NCBI GenBank assembly: GCA_015064955.1
Contig: SVRD01000017.1
Span: 1-36,863, forward strand
Origin: Oscillospiraceae bacterium
GTDB lineage: Bacteria > Bacillota > Clostridia > Oscillospirales > CAG-382
Length of the DNA stretch: 36,863 nucleotides
Reading direction: 5' to 3'
Shown here: piece after piece, positions 27,796 through 36,283 of the stretch
Numbering within the stretch: the first letter of the stretch is position 1
Layout: every line of letters begins with the position of its first letter
Notes under the pieces: generated by a model
What the model was told of the DNA's origin: nothing
Databases searched by the model: none
What the model saw: the letters and a program-made list of their open reading frames with translations, nothing else
Program-made: the position numbers and the translations under genes

Positions 27796-29352
27796 TTATT
27801 CTTCGTTGTAGCATTTGAAAAGTGCTTCAACACGTTCCGCCTCTGCCTTTTTATTCTTGGTAAACAGGCTTACCACCGGCACAACGATCATCGAGATCGC
27901 CATAGCCGCAACGCCCATTTCGGGAGATTTCGCAGCGGCAGCCGAGAAGCTGTCGGTAAGTGTAATGACAAGTGTTGCACCGCCAACGGTGAGAAGACCC
28001 GAAAGGATGCCTGCGTATGCACCGATTTTGGTGATCTTCTTTGAAAACAATCCCCAAATGTACGGGCCGATAAAGCAGCCGGAAACAAGACCCCAGGAGA
28101 ATGACATAAGGCTGACGATGATCGGAATGTTTTGAGTTGCGAAGATAAACGAGCAAGCGACAAATGCAAGGCAAAGAATTCTTGTTAAAAGCATTTGTGT
28201 TTCGGACTTGGTCTCTTTCTTTCTGACAGCGGGAATAAGGTCAACTGCAACCGCAGAAGCAGAGGTGAGAACAACAGCCTGCAAGGTCGACATCGAAGCG
28301 GAAAGAAGAAGTATCATTATAATTGCCAGCAAAATCAATCCGAGAACACCCTCGCCCAAAACACGATTAAGTAATTCGGGGATTACCGAGTCGATACCGC
28401 CGTCCGGCAATTGACCGCCGAGTACAAGACGCGACGTACTGCCGATAAGATACGCACCGCAACCGATTACGGTACAGAAGATCGTAGAGATGACCGTGCC
28501 GCGCTTAATAGCCGCGGTATCCTTGATAGCATAGAATTTGCCTATCATTTGAGGAAGTCCCCACGTACCAAAGCTTGTAAGCATAATATTGAAGCAAAGA
28601 AATCTGAACGAGGAGCCACCAAATATACCGGTTAACTGTTCGCCGGTGACGGGATTTGGATCATCCGGCAGAGATTGAAAGTTTCCGAGGTTTTCCATAA
28701 GACCCGATATTCCGCCTACGTTTTCGTGATTAAGTACCGCAAAAACAAGGCAGACCACACCGACAATCATAATAACACCCTGAACCAAGTCGGTATATGC
28801 GGTAGCCATATATCCGCCCGCAACAAGATAAATCGCGGTAAGAGAAGCGATTATAAGCATCCAGATCCAAGTGGGAACAGCAGGAAAAACAGAGCTGAAC
28901 AAAGCGCCGAGGCCTTTATAAACAGCCGCGGAATACGGTACAAGAAATACGAAAATTATAATCGACGCCAATACCTTCATACCCTTTGATCCATAGCGCT
29001 TTTCAAAATAATCCGGCATAGTTTTCGCATCAAGATGCTTTGTCATCTTTCTTGTACGGTTGGCAAGCAATAACCAAGAAAGCAAACAGCCGAGTACGGC
29101 ATTACCGATACCGATCCATATAGCTCCGATACCGATATTCCAACCGTGCTGACCTGCATATCCGACAAAGACTACCGCAGAGAAATAGGTGGTTCCGTAA
29201 GCAAAAGCGGTTGACCAAGCGCCGATCTTTCTTCCGCCGATCAGAAATCCGTCGAGCGTTTTTGATTTTCCATAACTAACACATCCGATAGCCGCCATTA
29301 CAACAGCATATATGCACAGTGCAATGACGGTATAAAGCTGTGCGTTTGTCAT
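27796..29352 (-). CDS. Sodium:solute symporter (SSS family)
   Basis: A 518-residue polytopic protein with 13 or so membrane helices and the SSS pattern: GGRKIGAWSTAFAYGTTYFSAVVFVGYAG near residue 40-65, GGYMATAYTDLVQGVIM near 180-200 (the sodium-solute signature region) and a long C-terminal half. Family members import proline, pantothenate, acetate, other monocarboxylates or sugars with sodium. The substrate cannot be read directly. Its place beside a LysR gene and an acyl-CoA synthetase module makes a carboxylate likely. Start at ATG 29352 follows AAGGAGG. The promoter at 29419-29447 carries an upstream LysR-type box. Confidence 0.88.
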   Translation of the reverse strand: MTNAQLYTVIALCIYAVVMAAIGCVSYGKSKTLDGFLIGGRKIGAWSTAFAYGTTYFSAVVFVGYAGQHGWNIGIGAIWIGIGNAVLGCLLSWLLLANRTRKMTKHLDAKTMPDYFEKRYGSKGMKVLASIIIFVFLVPYSAAVYKGLGALFSSVFPAVPTWIWMLIIASLTAIYLVAGGYMATAYTDLVQGVIMIVGVVCLVFAVLNHENVGGISGLMENLGNFQSLPDDPNPVTGEQLTGIFGGSSFRFLCFNIMLTSFGTWGLPQMIGKFYAIKDTAAIKRGTVISTIFCTVIGCGAYLIGSTSRLVLGGQLPDGGIDSVIPELLNRVLGEGVLGLILLAIIMILLLSASMSTLQAVVLTSASAVAVDLIPAVRKKETKSETQMLLTRILCLAFVACSFIFATQNIPIIVSLMSFSWGLVSGCFIGPYIWGLFSKKITKIGAYAGILSGLLTVGGATLVITLTDSFSAAAAKSPEMGVAAMAISMIVVPVVSLFTKNKKAEAERVEALFKCYNEE

Positions 29353-29418
29353 TTGGAATCCCTCCTTATTTAAAACCAAAACAAATTAATCATCAGGACT
29401 TGATTTTATCTGTCGATG

Positions 29419-29497: not shown

Positions 29498-30388
29498 ATG
29501 GAATTAAGAAATTTAATCACGTTTACACACGTTGCAGAGCTGGGCAGTTTTACAAAAGCCGCCGAGCTGCTCGGTTATTCGCAATCGACCGTATCCTTTC
29601 AGATAAAGCAGCTTGAAGACGAGCTCGGCTGTCTTTTATTTGAAAGAATCAACCACACGACCACACTAACCGAGCGCGGTCGCGAATTGGTTTCCTATGC
29701 TCACCAGATCCGCGCGCTTACAAACGAATTCAAGGATAATCTTGCAAAAGACGACGAGCTTACCGGTCACATAAATGTTGTGGCTCCCGATTCGGTATGC
29801 GATGAAATGATAAACAGCCATTATATCGACTTCCACGATAATTATCCTTCTATATCCATAAAATTCACCACTGCTGACACTACGGTCATGTTCGATATGC
29901 TCGACCACAACGAAGCAGATATTATTATCACTCTCGATAATCATTCTTATAACAAGGATTATATCATCGCAAAGGAGCAGCGGCTTTCCATGCACTTTGT
30001 TGCAAGAGCCGATTCGAAATTTGCGGGAATCAAAAATCTCTCTATCAGGGACATAATCAACGAGCCCTTTATTTTGACCGAATACGGTCAAGGATACAGA
30101 CGTGTTTTCGACAAAGAGCTTGCCAAGCGTTCTTTGGAAATCACCCCTGTTCTTGAAATCGGAAGAACAGATATTATTACGTCCGTCGTGGCAGAGAGCA
30201 ATATGCTTTCCTACCTCCCCGATTTTGTAACAAACGATCTGATCGAATCGGGAAAGCTTTGTTACCTTGACGTTAAAGATATGGATATCGAGATATGGAA
30301 GCAGCTCATATACCATAAAAACAAATGGATATCTAAAAGCCTCAAGGTATTTATTGACTATGTAAAGGAAAAAGAATTTTCGGATTAA
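29498..30388 (+). CDS. LysR-family transcriptional regulator
   Basis: A 296-residue protein with the N-terminal winged helix-turn-helix of the family (2-62: LRNLITFTHVAELGSFTKAAELLGYSQSTVSFQIKQLEDELGCLLFER) and a periplasmic-binding-fold effector domain (about 90-290). LysR proteins usually activate a divergent gene upon binding a small metabolite, so the symporter is the predicted target and a transported carboxylate the likely ligand. The start ATG has only a weak ribosome site (AAGAAAG), in keeping with low regulator expression. A palindrome 12-28 bases upstream is the likely operator. It converges with the ACT-MBL gene and is separated from it by a bidirectional terminator. Confidence 0.9.
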   Translation: MELRNLITFTHVAELGSFTKAAELLGYSQSTVSFQIKQLEDELGCLLFERINHTTTLTERGRELVSYAHQIRALTNEFKDNLAKDDELTGHINVVAPDSVCDEMINSHYIDFHDNYPSISIKFTTADTTVMFDMLDHNEADIIITLDNHSYNKDYIIAKEQRLSMHFVARADSKFAGIKNLSIRDIINEPFILTEYGQGYRRVFDKELAKRSLEITPVLEIGRTDIITSVVAESNMLSYLPDFVTNDLIESGKLCYLDVKDMDIEIWKQLIYHKNKWISKSLKVFIDYVKEKEFSD

Positions 30389-30432: not shown

Positions 30433-31869
30433 CTATGCATTTACAAAATAATCCTTTTTAAACCCATGTGCACCGAAGATTTGCCAATTCCCCACGCCAA
30501 GTCTTTGCATGATCGCTTTTCGTTCCTGCAAACATAGCTTCGGATCTGTATCAACCGAGGTCATAAGTATCGGTGCATACCGATTATACTCTGCCTGTTC
30601 TGCGGTCAAATTATGAGTATTGATATAAATATCTCCGGTGATTGCAATATGCTTTGAGTAATCTATCAGTACGATCTCTCCCGGCAGATGTCCGCCCTTG
30701 CCTTCATATACCTCAAAATGCAATTCCCCGAAATCGAAAAAGCCGATTTGTGTAAGCGGTTCGGTCAGATCTTGAATATCATTCCAAGGCACAGTTATCT
30801 TGTCCGGATTTACCGCTTGATACGACGTGAGAATTTTACAGATATTGATATAAGGTTTATGGATCGGATTGGATTCTCTGTAACCGTTTTTGCCGTTGTA
30901 TTCATTTGAAAGACAATTTGCCGTTTTGTGACTTGCGATTATCTTATCAAACAACGGGAGCAATCCGCAATGATCGACGTCCGCGTGAGTTACAAGAATC
31001 TGTTTTTCCATAGAGTCATACTCGGGAAGTATTTTTTCGATGATTCCGAGCATCTCCTCCTTGTAGCAAGCGTAACCGCTATCAACAAATAAAACGACTC
31101 CGTTGCTTTTAATTATTATTGTATTGCTTCCGCAGGGCGGCTCTACAAGAATGATTTCGGTATTATCGGTTATCTTATGTGTGCTTATTCGCGGATTGAA
31201 GCTTTTTCCCTTTGACTTTCCGAGCAATTCCGAAAATTTACTGATGCTGTCGAAGGTTCTGTACGGAGAAAGCCCCTGCTCGTCGAGCGTTTGCATCGCA
31301 AGATTCACGTGTACCAGCAATTCTCGGCAAACCTCCTCCGAAAGCCCCATTGTTCGAGACAATCCCATAACATAGGTATTATAAAAAATGCTGTTATCGT
31401 AAACCTTCTCGGAGCTGTTGTAATCGATAACCCTAACTCTGCAGAATTGCTCCGCTTCCTTCAGAAATTCCGTGATTTTCTCATGGTCATCAACGTACAA
31501 GCCCATTTTAAAGAATTGATAATCGGTTCCGTTTTCCTGAGAACTGATATAAGAAATATTGAAATTGAATTCGTTTATAAGCGTAAGTATATCTGTAACA
31601 CTTCCGGGAACGTCCCGAAGACAAAATTCGATTAGAACTATGCTCGTTTTATTTGCGTTGCTTTGCAAATATCCGATTTTCCCAAGCTCCGCATCCGCCT
31701 TTTTCAGCTGTTCCTCCGTTCCCTCGGCGTCAATAAACAAGGTGTGCGAATCCACCGCCTTGTTATAGCTGACACGGGTGATATTGATTCCCAAAGCAGA
31801 AAAGCATCTACTCGCCTTCAAAAATGCGCCTATCCGGTTTGGCATAGACGTTACGTATGTTTTTTTCAA
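30433..31869 (-). CDS. ACT-ACT-metallo-beta-lactamase fusion protein
   Basis: A 478-residue protein. Two ACT-type domains occupy about 2-70 (TYVTSMPNRIGAFLKASRCFSALGINITRVSYN) and 75-150 (FCLRDVPGSVTDILTLINEFNFNISYISS). A linker of about 70 residues follows, then a metallo-beta-lactamase domain (about 235-475) with HADVDH (295-300), the first metal motif, and a second metal site region (GGHLPGEIVLIDYSKHIAITGDIYINTH). ACT domains bind amino acids, so the hydrolase is probably controlled by one. It starts at TTG 31869, with GAGGTGA upstream at good distance; ATG at residue 9 is an alternative. It follows the acyl-CoA synthetase gene by 63 bases, with a hairpin between them, and shares its T-box-controlled transcript. 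The substrate may be a thioester or other acyl derivative. Confidence 0.8.
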   Translation of the reverse strand: MKKTYVTSMPNRIGAFLKASRCFSALGINITRVSYNKAVDSHTLFIDAEGTEEQLKKADAELGKIGYLQSNANKTSIVLIEFCLRDVPGSVTDILTLINEFNFNISYISSQENGTDYQFFKMGLYVDDHEKITEFLKEAEQFCRVRVIDYNSSEKVYDNSIFYNTYVMGLSRTMGLSEEVCRELLVHVNLAMQTLDEQGLSPYRTFDSISKFSELLGKSKGKSFNPRISTHKITDNTEIILVEPPCGSNTIIIKSNGVVLFVDSGYACYKEEMLGIIEKILPEYDSMEKQILVTHADVDHCGLLPLFDKIIASHKTANCLSNEYNGKNGYRESNPIHKPYINICKILTSYQAVNPDKITVPWNDIQDLTEPLTQIGFFDFGELHFEVYEGKGGHLPGEIVLIDYSKHIAITGDIYINTHNLTAEQAEYNRYAPILMTSVDTDPKLCLQERKAIMQRLGVGNWQIFGAHGFKKDYFVNA

Positions 31870-31932: not shown

Positions 31933-34239
31933 TTATTTACCCATTTTTTCCAAATCGTTTTTACGGATCTCGACACGTCTTACCTTGCCGCTGATAGTCT
32001 TGGGCAGCTCGGAAACAAATTCAACGATTCTCGGATACTTATAGGGTGCGGTATGTGTTTTTACGTATTCCTGAATTTCCTTTTTCAGTTCGTCCGAACC
32101 CTCCTTACCCTTTACAAGAACGATAGTCGCCTTTACGATCTGACCGCGGACCGGATCGGGAACAGGAGTGATAGCACATTCCAAAACGTAAGGAAGCTCC
32201 ATAATAACGCTTTCGACCTCGAACGGACCGATACGGTAGCCCGAGGATTTGATCACATCGTCGATACGTCCGACATACCAGAGATAACCGTCCTCGTCCA
32301 TACTTGCCTGGTCGCCGGTATGATAGTAACCGTCGTGCCAAACCTCATTGGTTTTTTCTTCGTCAAGATAATAACCGATAAAGAGTCCGCAGGGTGATTC
32401 GCCGTCTTTAACACGGATACAGATCTCGCCGGTGTCGCCGGTCTTGCAAACGTTTCCGTCGGGATCAAGAACAACTACGTCGTAGAGCGGGCTGGGTTTA
32501 CCCATAGAGCCGATTTTGGGAGTAGAGCCGACAAAATTGGCGATCGACAACGTGGTTTCGGTCTGACCGAAGCCCTCCATAATGGTAAGACCCGTTGCCT
32601 TCTTGAATTGGTTAAATACTTCGGGGTTAAGCGCTTCGCCCGCAGTGGTGGCATATTCGATCGAAGAGAGGTCGTATTTGGAAAGATCCTCTTTGATAAA
32701 GAAGCGGTACATTGTAGGAGGCGCGCAGAAGGTCGTGATATGGTACTTCGCAAACATAGGAAGTATATCTTCGGAATGGAATCTGTCGAAATCGTAGGTG
32801 AATACACCTGCTTCGCAGAGCCATTGTCCGTAAAGCTTACCCCAAAGCGCTTTGCCCCAGCCGGTATCGGAAATTGTGAAATGCAATCCGTTGGGATTTA
32901 CGTTGTGCCAATGCTTTGCGGTGGGATAATGACCCAACGCATATTTATAAGAATGGGTTGCGATACGCGGATAACCGGTAGTACCCGAGGTAAAGAGCAT
33001 AAGCATAGGATCGTTTCCGCAGGGGGTGTTTTCGGTACGTTCATAATGAGTGCTGAAGCGCTCCATTTCAACATTGAAATCGTTCCAGCCGTCCTTTTTA
33101 CCGCCAACAAGGATCTTTAACATTCCCGGGAAAGCATTTGCCGCCTTTTCCGCCTCGGCAGAAACGTCGCCGTCCGCAGTACAAACGATTGCCTTTACCT
33201 TTGCGGCTTTATATCTGTACTCAAAATCGTGCTCTACAAGCTGGTTGGTTGCGGGGATAGCGATTGCACCGATCTTATGAAGCGCGAGCATACAGAACCA
33301 GAACTGATAGTGACGCTTGAGCACAAGCATTACGGTATCGCCCTTTTGAATACCGAGCGATTCGAAATAGTTTGCGGTTTTTGCAGAATAACGCTTCAGA
33401 TCCTTAAAAGTAAATCTGCGGTCCGACTTATCGTTCGCCACCCACATCATTGCAAGCTTGTCGGGATTCTTTTCCGCGATAGCGTCGACGCAGTCGAAGG
33501 CAAAATTGAATTTATCTTCATTTTTGAACTTGATTCCGCTGAATACTCCGTTTTCATCATAGAAGGATTCAACAAAATTGTCGGCAACGGTTGTTACCGA
33601 GGGTTCCTTCTCTGCTGCCGCCTTCGGAGCAACGTAGGGCACTTCGGGATATTCCTCGCTTACGCTTCCGTCCTGCGGATTAAGAACTACCGCGTGGAAT
33701 TCACAACCGCCCTCGCTGACAGCGATCATACCGTGGGGAATAAGGCTGTTATAGAAAATAGAATCGCCTTCATGAAGAACGTCTACGTGATTGCCCACCT
33801 GAACCTTCAACGAGCCTTTTACGATTACGTCAAATTCCTGTCCTTTGTGGGAATTAAGCTTCATTGGAGCATCTTGCTCTTCGGGAAGATAAGGAAACTT
33901 GACCAAAAAGGGTTCCGCAAGCTTTTCCTTGAATTTAGGCGCAAGGTTGTTATATTCAACACCGTGCTGTTTTAAAATTTTAAGTCCTTCGCCTTTTCTT
34001 GTGATCGCAAAAGAGCTCAAGGTCGTGCTTGTTCCGTCGAGAAGATCAACAACCTCAACACCGCAAGCCTTTGCGCATTTGTAAATAAAAGTAAAGCTGA
34101 AATCGGTTTCGCCCGTTTCTAAAACGGCATACTCTTCAACCGATACTCCGGTAAGCCTTGCAAGCTCTTCCTGAGTATAGCCTTTTGCCTCGCGCAGATC
34201 CTTGATTCTTCCTGCAACCTCTTTCAAACTGTAATCCAT
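31933..34239 (-). CDS. XRE-cupin-acyl-CoA synthetase fusion (AMP-forming)
   Basis: A 768-residue protein of three parts. Residues 6-66 are a Cro/C1 helix-turn-helix (GRIKDLREAKGYTQEELARLTGVSVEEYAVLETG). Residues about 120-190 are a cupin barrel. Residues about 225-768 are an adenylate-forming acyl-CoA synthetase with TSGTTGYPR (417-425), the GFGQTETT box, and SSGYRIGPFEVES and PKTISGKVRR (catalytic Lys near 752) in the C-terminal domain. These match the medium/short-chain acyl-CoA synthetase branch. The start at ATG 34239 follows AAGGAG; the longer frame to 34314 runs through the leader's terminator. It is controlled by the T-box leader upstream, with a probable isoleucine specifier. A plausible substrate is a branched-chain acid such as 2-methylbutyrate. 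XRE-cupin regulators are normally separate proteins. Confidence 0.88.
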   Translation of the reverse strand: MDYSLKEVAGRIKDLREAKGYTQEELARLTGVSVEEYAVLETGETDFSFTFIYKCAKACGVEVVDLLDGTSTTLSSFAITRKGEGLKILKQHGVEYNNLAPKFKEKLAEPFLVKFPYLPEEQDAPMKLNSHKGQEFDVIVKGSLKVQVGNHVDVLHEGDSIFYNSLIPHGMIAVSEGGCEFHAVVLNPQDGSVSEEYPEVPYVAPKAAAEKEPSVTTVADNFVESFYDENGVFSGIKFKNEDKFNFAFDCVDAIAEKNPDKLAMMWVANDKSDRRFTFKDLKRYSAKTANYFESLGIQKGDTVMLVLKRHYQFWFCMLALHKIGAIAIPATNQLVEHDFEYRYKAAKVKAIVCTADGDVSAEAEKAANAFPGMLKILVGGKKDGWNDFNVEMERFSTHYERTENTPCGNDPMLMLFTSGTTGYPRIATHSYKYALGHYPTAKHWHNVNPNGLHFTISDTGWGKALWGKLYGQWLCEAGVFTYDFDRFHSEDILPMFAKYHITTFCAPPTMYRFFIKEDLSKYDLSSIEYATTAGEALNPEVFNQFKKATGLTIMEGFGQTETTLSIANFVGSTPKIGSMGKPSPLYDVVVLDPDGNVCKTGDTGEICIRVKDGESPCGLFIGYYLDEEKTNEVWHDGYYHTGDQASMDEDGYLWYVGRIDDVIKSSGYRIGPFEVESVIMELPYVLECAITPVPDPVRGQIVKATIVLVKGKEGSDELKKEIQEYVKTHTAPYKYPRIVEFVSELPKTISGKVRRVEIRKNDLEKMGK

Positions 34240-34298
34240 TTTGTGTTTTCTCCTTTCAATTTCGGCAGTTTTGGTAATGGATTCTAATTTGAATAAAA

Positions 34299-34582
34299 CA
34301 AAAACCCGTCTCAAAAAAATCTTTGAGACGAGTTATAAACCCGCGGTACCACTCAAATTACGGAAGATAAATTCCGTCACTTAACGAGCTCAAACAAGCT
34401 CTTTGCTTTTACGCAGCATTACGGAAGGAGTCTACTTGCTATTAAGCTTTCGGTCCTCCGACTCAGAAGTGATAAGCCATTGGAATGCTTTGCTGTTGTC
34501 TCGCACCAACCGACAATTCTCTGTACGCATTACGTTCCGACCGTCTTCGTCATAGTCGTTTTTGTGATATTCAAATTTTACA
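34299..34582 (-). ncRNA. T-box leader, probable tRNA-Ile sensor
   Basis: Read on the minus strand, the conserved T-box sequence AATTTGAGTGGTACCGCGG spans 34341-34359. It is followed by a terminator with arms ACTCGTCTCAAA and TTTGAGACGGGT and a T-run (34299-34333). Upstream, Stem I shows an AGAGA-type bulge, GGTTGGTGCGA in the distal loop (about 34499-34509) and CTTCTGAGTC at its base. By alignment with well-known T-boxes, the specifier codon just before A-CUUC is AUC (34471-34473), for isoleucine. The UGGU in the T-box pairs with an ACCA tRNA end, consistent with tRNA-Ile (A73). Uncharged tRNA-Ile would favour antitermination and expression of the synthetase and ACT-MBL genes. Confidence 0.85.
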
Positions 34583-34588
34583 TAACGG

Positions 34589-34617
34589 ATTATACTACTG
34601 CAAATACGACTTGTCAA
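34589..34617 (-). promoter_or_regulatory. Consensus SigA promoter for the T-box operon
   Basis: On the minus strand: TTGACA (34612-34617), 17-base spacer, TATAAT (34589-34594), a perfect consensus, so control probably lies mainly in the T-box. 34618-34741 shows no further feature. Confidence 0.85.
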
Positions 34618-34741
34618 TAGTTTTTTTCAGCAAAATCGCCATTATTTACATAAATATTTCCGAATTTCATCATCGAAATCTTCGATATTGAATGCTTCAA
34701 CCCAAATCAGCAAAGCAACGTATAAAAAACAAAATAAGCAT

Positions 34742-35249: not shown

Positions 35250-35495
35250 GATTTTGTGGAGAAACAGAGCAACTGCTTGTTGCTTGCAGTTCTCTGCCCT
35301 TCCACGTCATTGTGCTTATATTCCGCCACTTTAACGGGTTGCCGACCGCATATCATAAGTGATTGCCGTTCCGTTGTACGCGGTGAGCAGATCGCCCCAT
35401 GTGGTGTTTGGGTTTCCTTATAGTCGGCAAGGTAACTGGTATAGTCCGCCATTAATGTGCCGCTGTGATAAGGATATATATCCTTTTTGGTTATA
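35250..35495 (-). pseudogene. Decayed RHS (YD-repeat) C-terminal fragment
   Basis: Read on the minus strand, three frames give consecutive pieces of an RHS core: IGNITKKDIYPYHSGTLM with DYTSYLADYKET, then NTTWGDLLTAYNGTAITYD, then VGNPLKWRNISTMTWKGREL. These are the standard words at the end of the YD-repeat shell, split by at least two frameshifts, so the gene is dead. It is a tail cassette without its repeat-rich N-terminus. It ends at the lipoprotein terminator. Confidence 0.7.
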
Positions 35496-35519
35496 TTACC
35501 TATCGTTCACTATTTTATA

Positions 35520-35831
35520 TCACTCATATCGAAACTGCTCCCCGATGTAGTATGCGCTTTCATCACAACGCTTCTTTTCAAATATTTCATATTCCTCTTC
35601 AGAGAACCCAAGTTCAATTATGAAATCCCGAACAGAATCATATTTTGTATTTAAATGGTCAGCCATACTCAAATAACAAATAATAAGATTATTCGCGGCA
35701 ACTGCAGAATAGTGCGGATCGCTAATAGAGTCATTTAAAACATTTTCTATCAATTCTTGAATATCGGTATAAATAAACTCTAATATATATCGTGTGTATT
35801 TTGTAGAATCACTCACTTTTTTATTTACCAT
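35520..35831 (-). CDS. Small acidic protein, possible orphan RHS immunity protein
   Basis: A 103-residue soluble, helical, acidic protein I do not recognise (core: YTDIQELIENVLNDSISDPHYSAVAANNLIICYLSMADHLNTKYDSVRDFIIELGFSEEEYEIFEKK). It lies between two RHS tail fragments on the same strand. In intact RHS loci a small acidic gene in this position normally encodes the immunity protein for the toxin tip. That role is inference from position and size. The ribosome site is weak (GTGGTG), and no toxin domain remains upstream. Confidence 0.55.
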   Translation of the reverse strand: MVNKKVSDSTKYTRYILEFIYTDIQELIENVLNDSISDPHYSAVAANNLIICYLSMADHLNTKYDSVRDFIIELGFSEEEYEIFEKKRCDESAYYIGEQFRYE

Positions 35832-35860
35832 GTTTCACCACATACTTCGCAATAATGCAC

Positions 35861-36240
35861 TTAGTTTGTATCAAATACAGTTATAAAACACAATGCAGCA
35901 GCCGGAATTAGCGCATCATCGTAAACGCCGTTGCCGTAGGTGTAGGTTGCGACAGTCTGCCTTTGGGGCGCGATATAGCTAATATAGTCGCCCATCGTCT
36001 CGCCCTCGGCAAACGGGTAGCTATCCTTTTGGGTTATATTGCCGGATTTATCGTAATAATAAATATACGTCTTGTCCGCAACAGCGTCCTCTTCGCAGGT
36101 GAGCTGGCCAAGAGAATCGTAGGTATATTCGTTTATTATTACGCCGTCTTTTCTAATTTGGGTGATATTGCCCAAATTATCGTAGGTATAGGAATATACA
36201 GTTGAAGGGGTATCCCCCGGCGTCTGTTTTATACAGATGA
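35861..36240 (-). pseudogene. RHS (YD-repeat) fragment
   Basis: The minus-strand frame encodes YD-repeat units: TVYSYTYDNLGNITQIRKDG, EYTYDSLGQLTCEEDAV, YIYYYDKSGNITQKDSYPF and TVATYTYGNGVYDD, then a stop 16 codons later. Upstream, the frame fades with no start, and the N-terminal shell is missing. The part GNITQKDSYPF...MGDYISYIA is homologous to GNITKKDIYPY...MADYTSYLA in the other fragment (35250-35495), so the two are alternative tails of the same gene type. Confidence 0.7.
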
Positions 36241-36283
36241 CGAGGGTGTTTATACAAATCTGTTAATATAGAATATAACTTCT

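Follow-up and report, generated by a model that had tools for sequence, protein, structure and literature searches.

A need for branched volatile fatty acids has long been attributed to fiber degraders of the rumen and gut, and the genes that take such acids into amino acids, together with their control, are not settled in the literature that we found. In a rumen methanogen, reductive carboxylation of 2-methylbutyrate is described as a probable route to isoleucine (PMC2812497, citing Robinson and Allison 1969). The Methanosarcina acetivorans enzyme MacsMa prefers 2-methylbutyrate as its substrate, completes both reaction steps with it, and has a critical residue in Trp259 (PMC10455477). MbcS of Staphylococcus aureus activates 2-methylbutyrate and isobutyrate; butyrate and isovalerate are poor substrates, and activity with acetate was not detected (PMC10026030). 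Here we describe a T-box leader and the acid:coenzyme A (CoA) ligase gene downstream of it, P0001, in a stretch of 36,863 nucleotides from an Oscillospiraceae bacterium (contig SVRD01000017.1 of assembly GCA_015064955.1; the whole stretch is called the window). Comparison with related loci makes it quite probable that the two belong to a system of tRNA-controlled reductive carboxylation, in which an isoleucine T-box governs a MacsMa-like ligase serving the conversion of 2-methylbutyrate to isoleucine, and in which relatives convert isobutyrate to valine in the same manner.

The mechanism that we propose runs as follows. As in the T-box family at large, uncharged tRNA-Ile would pair through its anticodon with an AUC codon in the leader and through its ACCA end with a UGGU bulge, upon which the antiterminator would form and the gene would be read. 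P0001 would turn environmental 2-methylbutyrate into 2-methylbutyryl-CoA, 2-oxoisovalerate:ferredoxin oxidoreductase (VOR) would reductively carboxylate this product to 3-methyl-2-oxovalerate, and a transaminase would convert the latter to isoleucine. Relatives have a second copy of the ligase gene, controlled by a valine T-box and lined up with VOR genes, whose product would act on isobutyrate for valine. The ketol-acid reductoisomerase IlvC is required to form isoleucine and valine from 2-oxobutyrate or pyruvate, and lineages that lack it may have no internal source of the two amino acids other than reductive carboxylation.

The T-box leader and its specifier

The leader occupies positions 34303-34582 of the minus strand. 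It and its promoter have the following parts.

34589..34617, minus strand: sigma-70 type promoter, TTGACA-17-TATAAT, 12 of 12 consensus matches
34321..34562, minus strand: T-box leader as matched by the covariance model (RF00230, 86.4 bits, E 1.9e-19, model positions 1-219, full length; scan of 34200-34680)
34471..34473, minus strand: specifier codon AUC (isoleucine), placed by the covariance-model alignment
34348..34351, minus strand: UGGU of the T-box bulge, read from the sequence; would pair with the ACCA of an A73 tRNA
34303..34334, minus strand: intrinsic terminator, alternative to the antiterminator

A preliminary description of the window had called a T-box behind a perfect SigA promoter, with an AUC specifier and a UGGU/ACCA pairing that fit tRNA-Ile, and each of these calls held. 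For comparison with relatives we used the best 80 of 568 homologues from a scan of named genomes, which with the window make 81 loci; 42 leaders, from 41 of the relatives and the window, were aligned for covariation. The T-box motif is present in 79 of the 80 relatives, and the 80th has 2 bases of upstream sequence. AUC is the specifier in 79 of the 79 readable leaders among the 81 examined, with variable flanking bases; the two unreadable leaders lie at contig ends, where the upstream sequence is too short. The UGGU bulge was found in 80 of 81 leaders, the sole miss being one of these two contig ends.

Over the 42 aligned leaders, 31 pairs in five helices show 98.4% paired cells, and 13 pairs have changed on both sides, a level of covariation reached by none of 500 shuffles. 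Pairing drops to 89.9% in the weakest helix. The terminator helix is 99.3% paired. The antiterminator is 99.4% paired and barely varies; its covariation was equalled in 66 of 500 shuffles and so gives it no support of its own. Folding of the leader alone, as a single sequence, gave no signal (z −1.25). A scan of the whole window genome gave five T-box matches, this leader among them (E 1.6e-19).

Two other readings of the specifier were considered. A UAU or UUA frame is ruled out by the bases before AUC, which vary (TT in 38 leaders, CT in 22, CC in 18, GT in 1). The base after AUC is A in 66 leaders, C in 10, and G in 3, which would suit a UCN frame for serine. We rejected that frame because the discriminator of serine tRNA is a G, at odds with the UGGU bulge, and because the covariance model places the codon at AUC. 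The discriminator of tRNA-Ile is A73. No tRNA-Ile gene was found in the 47 loci scanned, six of which come from the window's genome. As far as sequence can show, the leader is a T-box with an isoleucine specifier.

Four isoleucine leaders of a class at 58% identity (L145, L144, L136, and L150) keep AUC and diverge in the T-box sequence, which reads GAGTGGTATAATGCAG in two of them, GAGTGGTATAATGAAC in one, and GAGCGGTATT, with UGGU lost, in the fourth.

The ligase, its tandem copies, and its predicted substrate

The gene downstream of the leader begins with an ATG at 34239, preceded by GGAG, and encodes the following domains.

31933..34239, minus strand: P0001, a protein of 768 amino acids with helix-turn-helix (HTH), cupin, and acyl-CoA synthetase parts, predicted to be a 2-methylbutyrate--CoA ligase (translation, Pfam, NCBIfam, PDB)
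34045..34206, minus strand: HTH_3 domain, residues 12-65 (Pfam, 8.1e-13)
33688..33858, minus strand: Cupin_2 domain, residues 128-184 (Pfam, 6.1e-9)
31984..33483, minus strand: AMP-binding (residues 253-611) and AMP-binding_C (674-752) domains (Pfam, 9.9e-58 and 4.6e-21)

The Pfam matches bear out the AMP-forming acyl-CoA synthetase named in the preliminary description, which had overlooked the N-terminal HTH and cupin domains. The closest solved structure is that of MacsMa (3ETC), which matches at 678 bits over residues 233-762, the next structure scoring 382, and the W of AKHWHNV in P0001 appears to align with MacsMa Trp259, the numbering being shifted by one. The best NCBIfam model is MbcS (NF047394) at 450.5 bits, compared with 355 for acetate--CoA ligase, and P0001 may work like MbcS. 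In 80 aligned orthologues the mean modal frequency is 0.917 for the HTH domain, 0.929 for the cupin, 0.950 for the catalytic part, and 0.736 for the linker. The HTH-cupin part is thus nearly as conserved as the catalytic part and seems to be under constraint; it may let the enzyme also act on transcription. Stand-alone ligases without this part occur in G006:C17, G003:C36, and G011:C63 (L163-L165, L168), ∼10-12 kb from separate HTH-cupin-like genes, so the parts of the fusion also exist apart.

Duplicated loci also bear on substrate and pathway. In a sample of 394 genomes from 168 genera of the order, searched at a homologue threshold of E 1e-180, a ligase homologue is present in 218 genomes and 103 genera, in many cases as a tandem pair ∼400 nt apart. 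Among 35 hand-picked tandem loci, copy 1 has an AUC T-box upstream in 33, and copy 2 has a GUA T-box in 30 and a GUC T-box in 1. GUA and GUC are both valine codons, which argues for a real valine signal. The VOR gene vorB lies downstream on the same strand in 30 of the 35 loci, followed by the genes for the beta and gamma subunits; the remaining five stretches end within 1.1 kb of copy 2. The VorB of one such genome, G019, scores 537 bits, above the NCBIfam cut-off of 399. A GUA or GUC codon precedes the ligase in seven family genomes (G019, G031, G032, G048, G049, G050, and G052), and in six of these (genera g4 and g9) VorB was not found beside the ligase within the fetched stretches. In G051 a ligase of 46% identity lies after the VOR genes, with two stops in its frame. 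A conserved 230-residue protein, a P-loop protein by eye, lies between copy 2 and vorB (for example, L117 2362-3054); it and its homologues in the valine-VOR operons have a weak CbiA match and no NCBIfam match.

The two ligase types also separate by descent and in the catalytic domain. In a careful tree of 84 domains, all 30 labeled valine rows and four second copies that lack a T-box fall in one clade (support 95/97). One label change suffices for the 85 isoleucine-labeled and 38 valine-labeled rows in a quick tree of 139 catalytic domains; when the 16 unlabeled rows are counted as a third state, the valine group requires four, with a support of 91 on the valine side. Position 462 is fixed in each class, as Gly in 87 of 87 isoleucine-type rows (85 distinct) and as Ala in 39 of 39 valine-type rows (38 distinct), and position 465 is Leu or Val in the isoleucine type and Met or Ala in the valine type. 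MacsMa has Gly at the position of 462. The GWGK motif presumably aligns with the stretch that lines the acyl pocket of acetyl-CoA synthetase. Ala462 would put a larger side chain where the shorter acid, isobutyrate, is expected, in agreement with the substrate predicted for the valine-type copies.

Pathway genes and rival explanations

The assembly of the window genome comprises 1.76 Mb and is 82% complete. An oxoacid:ferredoxin oxidoreductase, for which the preliminary description had advised checking the genome, is present:

G000:C16:24723-25772: VorB of the window genome (G000), NF005507, 546 bits, over the cut-off; gamma subunit beside it, named by eye

An iorA gene above its cut-off lies on contig C27 of the same genome, among genes that by eye are an apparent phenylacetate ligase and iorB. 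The best match to IlvC, counted as present at 220 bits or more, is 30.9 bits. A complete isoleucine pathway, which would speak against the 2-methylbutyrate route, is thus not seen as far as IlvC goes. The best score of the threonine dehydratase model (TIGR01127) in the window genome is 80 bits against a cut-off of 379, which is passed in 5 of the 24 genomes of the genus. In the genus set IlvC was not found in 20 of 24 genomes, four of them 95-99% complete, and it was found in 14 of 14 control genomes. CimA, a possible bypass, exceeds its cut-off in none of the 24, with 242-258 bits in G006, G010, G015, and G020. Where IlvC is truly absent, the route from propionate or 2-oxobutyrate to isoleucine is closed. 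The window genome also holds an ilvBN-leuACDB operon under a CUC T-box (L006 5158-11881, on G000:C24).

The family set extends this pattern to 63 genomes, 32 of them of high quality. IlvC is present in 23 and not found in 40, VorB is present in 43, and the fused ligase is present in 40, by a count made by hand in which some matches are cut by contig ends. Ligase and VorB go together: 39 genomes have both, one has the ligase only (84% complete), four have VorB only, and 19 have neither, and among the high-quality genomes 24 have both and eight have neither, with none having only one. For ligase and IlvC the counts are both in seven genomes, the ligase only in 33, IlvC only in 16, and neither in seven, all of the last at most 88% complete (Fisher p 8e-5, in a test that, as throughout for these patterns, ignores kinship). 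The corresponding high-quality counts are 7, 17, 8, and 0, and IlvC was not found in 17 of the 24 high-quality genomes with ligase and VorB. Sorted by genus, every genome of g3, g11, and g12 has IlvC, and none has ligase or VorB; all three are present in g2 and g7; IlvC is not seen in g4, g5, g6, g9, and g13, where ligase and VorB are mostly present; and g1 and g8 are mixed. In the single g10 genome (53% complete), none of the three was seen.

Several observations weigh against reductive carboxylation under tRNA control as the role of this locus. In the window genome VOR lies on another contig (C16) and not beside the ligase, and no valine-type copy adjoins the ligase. Because the assembly is only 82% complete, it may just not include IlvC, and the presence of ilvBN in the leu operon fits poorly with a lost pathway. 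IlvC is present in 7 of the 40 ligase-bearing family genomes. Only one of the 13 T-boxes read before window-type ligases in the genus is a valine T-box, so the valine supply of the other members is unexplained unless the window-type enzyme also takes isobutyrate. Among the 35 tandem loci, no T-box was found at four second copies (gaps of at most 183 nt) or at two first copies. At 450.5 bits P0001 is far below the MbcS cut-off of 850 and is not filed as a member. Finally, the leader itself, at 86.4 bits, does not reach the RF00230 gathering score of 93; the default Rfam scan of the window listed nothing, the T-box lying 7 bits below the threshold. Three close orthologue leaders do pass (G003 at 99.2, G007 at 102.9, and G016 at 102.8 bits), and the shortfall therefore reflects divergence.

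The strongest rival explanation concerns membrane lipids. When isoleucine, the usual precursor, is scarce, 2-methylbutyryl-CoA could prime anteiso fatty acids, as with MbcS in S. aureus. An isoleucine signal would make sense in this setting too, and the model that best matches P0001 is that of MbcS, whose role is in branched fatty acid synthesis (PMC10026030). Against lipid priming stand the valine-type copies in line with the VorB, beta, and gamma genes, and the joint presence or absence of VorB and ligase in 32 of 32 high-quality genomes, with IlvC often not found. We regard it as improbable, and lipid and amino acid uses may coexist.

Two further alternatives fare worse. Propionate is abundant in the gut, and if it were the substrate, propionyl-CoA could be carboxylated to 2-oxobutyrate and enter the normal isoleucine pathway through IlvBN, IlvC, and IlvD; ilvBN is indeed present in the window genome, and MacsMa can adenylate propionate (PMC10455477). 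The same paper reports that the adenylate which MacsMa forms from many acids, 2-methylbutyrate excepted, is unsuited to the thioester step. In the 20 genus genomes where IlvC was not found, 2-oxobutyrate could not reach isoleucine, and a propionate route gives no reason for a valine-type copy with VOR, so that this possibility seems very unlikely. The genes might also run in reverse, with VOR oxidizing branched oxoacids and the ligase releasing the acids, much as VOR and acyl-CoA enzymes ferment branched oxoacids in peptide-fermenting anaerobes. A T-box, however, turns genes on when an amino acid is lacking, which is the wrong sign for catabolism; AMP-forming ligases favor activation; and the frequent lack of IlvC would be unexplained. 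We give this reading the least credence of all. The reading that 2-methylbutyrate is activated and reductively carboxylated, which the preliminary description had raised for this gene, gains support from the kinship with MacsMa, the tandem loci with valine T-boxes and VorB, and the distribution of IlvC and VorB, and it remains the one that we favor.

Related T-boxes, neighboring genes, and known systems

RF00230 has 81 matches in the 24 genus genomes, and the specifier was read in 68; several of the downstream genes were named by eye and not by family searches. Thirteen read T-boxes precede window-type ligases, 12 with AUC and one with GUC (in G019). Another 13 precede a second ligase type, a fusion of a TIM barrel with an AMP-binding part, and all 13 carry CUC (leucine); these leaders have terminator-like ends and no canonical TGGNACCGCG motif. 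The window genome has such a fusion (AP_endonuc_2 with acyl-CoA ligase), with a CUC T-box Stem I at G000:C3:35919-36090 (L007 5920-6091, minus strand). Four T-boxes, all UUC (phenylalanine), precede phenylacetate--CoA ligase-like genes, one of which was tested against PaaK and scored 522 bits against a cut-off of 646. Where other downstream genes could be named, the codons fit as well: ilvB has CUC (window genome) or GUC (G007), ilvA and leuA have CUC, Trp-related genes have UGG, and aroF has UUC. One locus (L093, G007:C7:38000-50296) has three T-boxes within ∼11 kb. A UUC T-box precedes a phenylacetate--CoA ligase-like gene with an ACT pair, a CUC T-box precedes a LeuA-like gene with a TIM-barrel ligase, and an AUC T-box precedes a window-type ligase.

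In the window, the ligase gene is followed by the gene for P0002 on the same strand.

30433..31869, minus strand: P0002, a protein with ACT and metallo-beta-lactamase folds (Pfam), perhaps co-transcribed with P0001 and not a core part of the system

The Pfam matches agree with the ACT-regulated hydrolase of the preliminary description, but its standing as a general partner is not supported. A homologue occurs in 20 of the 80 relatives, and in 15 of these it comes right after the ligase gene on the same strand. Downstream sequence reaches 1.5 kb or more in 72 of the 80, and clustering of open reading frames counts it in 18 of 81 loci, window included; as a core operon partner it is ruled out. 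Beyond this hydrolase, no conserved neighborhood was found around the window-type gene in the 81 loci; the linkage to VOR appears in the tandem loci and in G051. A sodium:solute symporter (SSF) gene and a divergent LysR regulator lie close to the operon, at 27796-29379 and 29498-30388. The symporter, which has a homologue in 9 of 81 loci, could carry acids. On the other side, at 35400-36260 (minus strand), lie what by eye seem to be broken-up fragments resembling YD repeats (RHS-like; for example, YTYDNLGNITQ).

A wider interpretation, which we put forward tentatively and at somewhat less than even confidence, is that much of this order of gut Clostridia scavenges the fermentation acids of its neighbors in place of, or in addition to, making branched-chain amino acids itself, each ligase being placed under the T-box of the amino acid that it feeds. 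2-Methylbutyrate would thus serve isoleucine and isobutyrate valine; the TIM-barrel/ligase fusion with CUC would serve leucine, perhaps from isovalerate, and the phenylacetate--CoA ligase-like enzymes with UUC would serve phenylalanine. The HTH-cupin ligase would possibly be a trigger enzyme, conveying the state of the acid supply to transcription, and specifier and pocket would have changed together at one duplication. The present findings supply candidate genes for the assimilation of branched acids, and the specifier codon of each gene predicts its substrate. If they are correct, a cell could rebuild isoleucine from a neighbor's fermentation acid instead of from scratch, and amino acid supply in the gut would be tied to cross-fed acids through tRNA charging. 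A genome sequence would then reveal dependence on isoacids, a point of interest for feed additives and for growing uncultured gut species.

Such a use of T-boxes, on acid:CoA ligases that would serve reductive carboxylation and are divided by amino acid, appears to be new. Among the literature matches listed there was no report of a T-box controlling an acid:CoA ligase, and an earlier mention in the surveys of Vitreschak 2008 or Gutierrez-Preciado 2009 is possible. The main text of Wels 2008 (PMC2494555) contains neither "acyl-CoA" nor "CoA ligase", and that of Sun 2013 (PMC3766115) contains neither "CoA" nor "ligase". In an apparently close case, the available part of PMC2700814 places the T-box on leuA; the available part of PMC10311502 holds nothing on mechanism.

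It is useful to contrast the locus with the systems that it most resembles. In its build, the window RNA is an ordinary T-box of the transcriptional class of RF00230, with a Stem I that carries the specifier loop, covarying helices, an upstream promoter, a UGGN bulge with ACCGCG, and an antiterminator and a terminator that are mutually exclusive. It differs in lying just below the Rfam gathering cut-off and in governing an acid:CoA ligase, not a tRNA synthetase, a transporter, or a gene of a classical amino acid pathway. Among solved structures, MacsMa is by sequence the closest to the catalytic part of P0001 and shares with it the Gly at position 462 and, apparently, the critical Trp. P0001, however, adds an HTH-cupin part (residues 1-232, outside the match) and a T-box, and its substrate is predicted whereas that of MacsMa was measured. 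MbcS is the best NCBIfam model for P0001 and takes short branched acids as its substrates; in contrast, P0001 scores 450 against the cut-off of 850, and MbcS supplies fatty acid synthesis. The pathway proposed here is the same as the one by which rumen anaerobes form isoleucine from 2-methylbutyrate (Robinson and Allison 1969, as cited in PMC2812497), to which our analysis would add candidate genes and control by tRNA charging.

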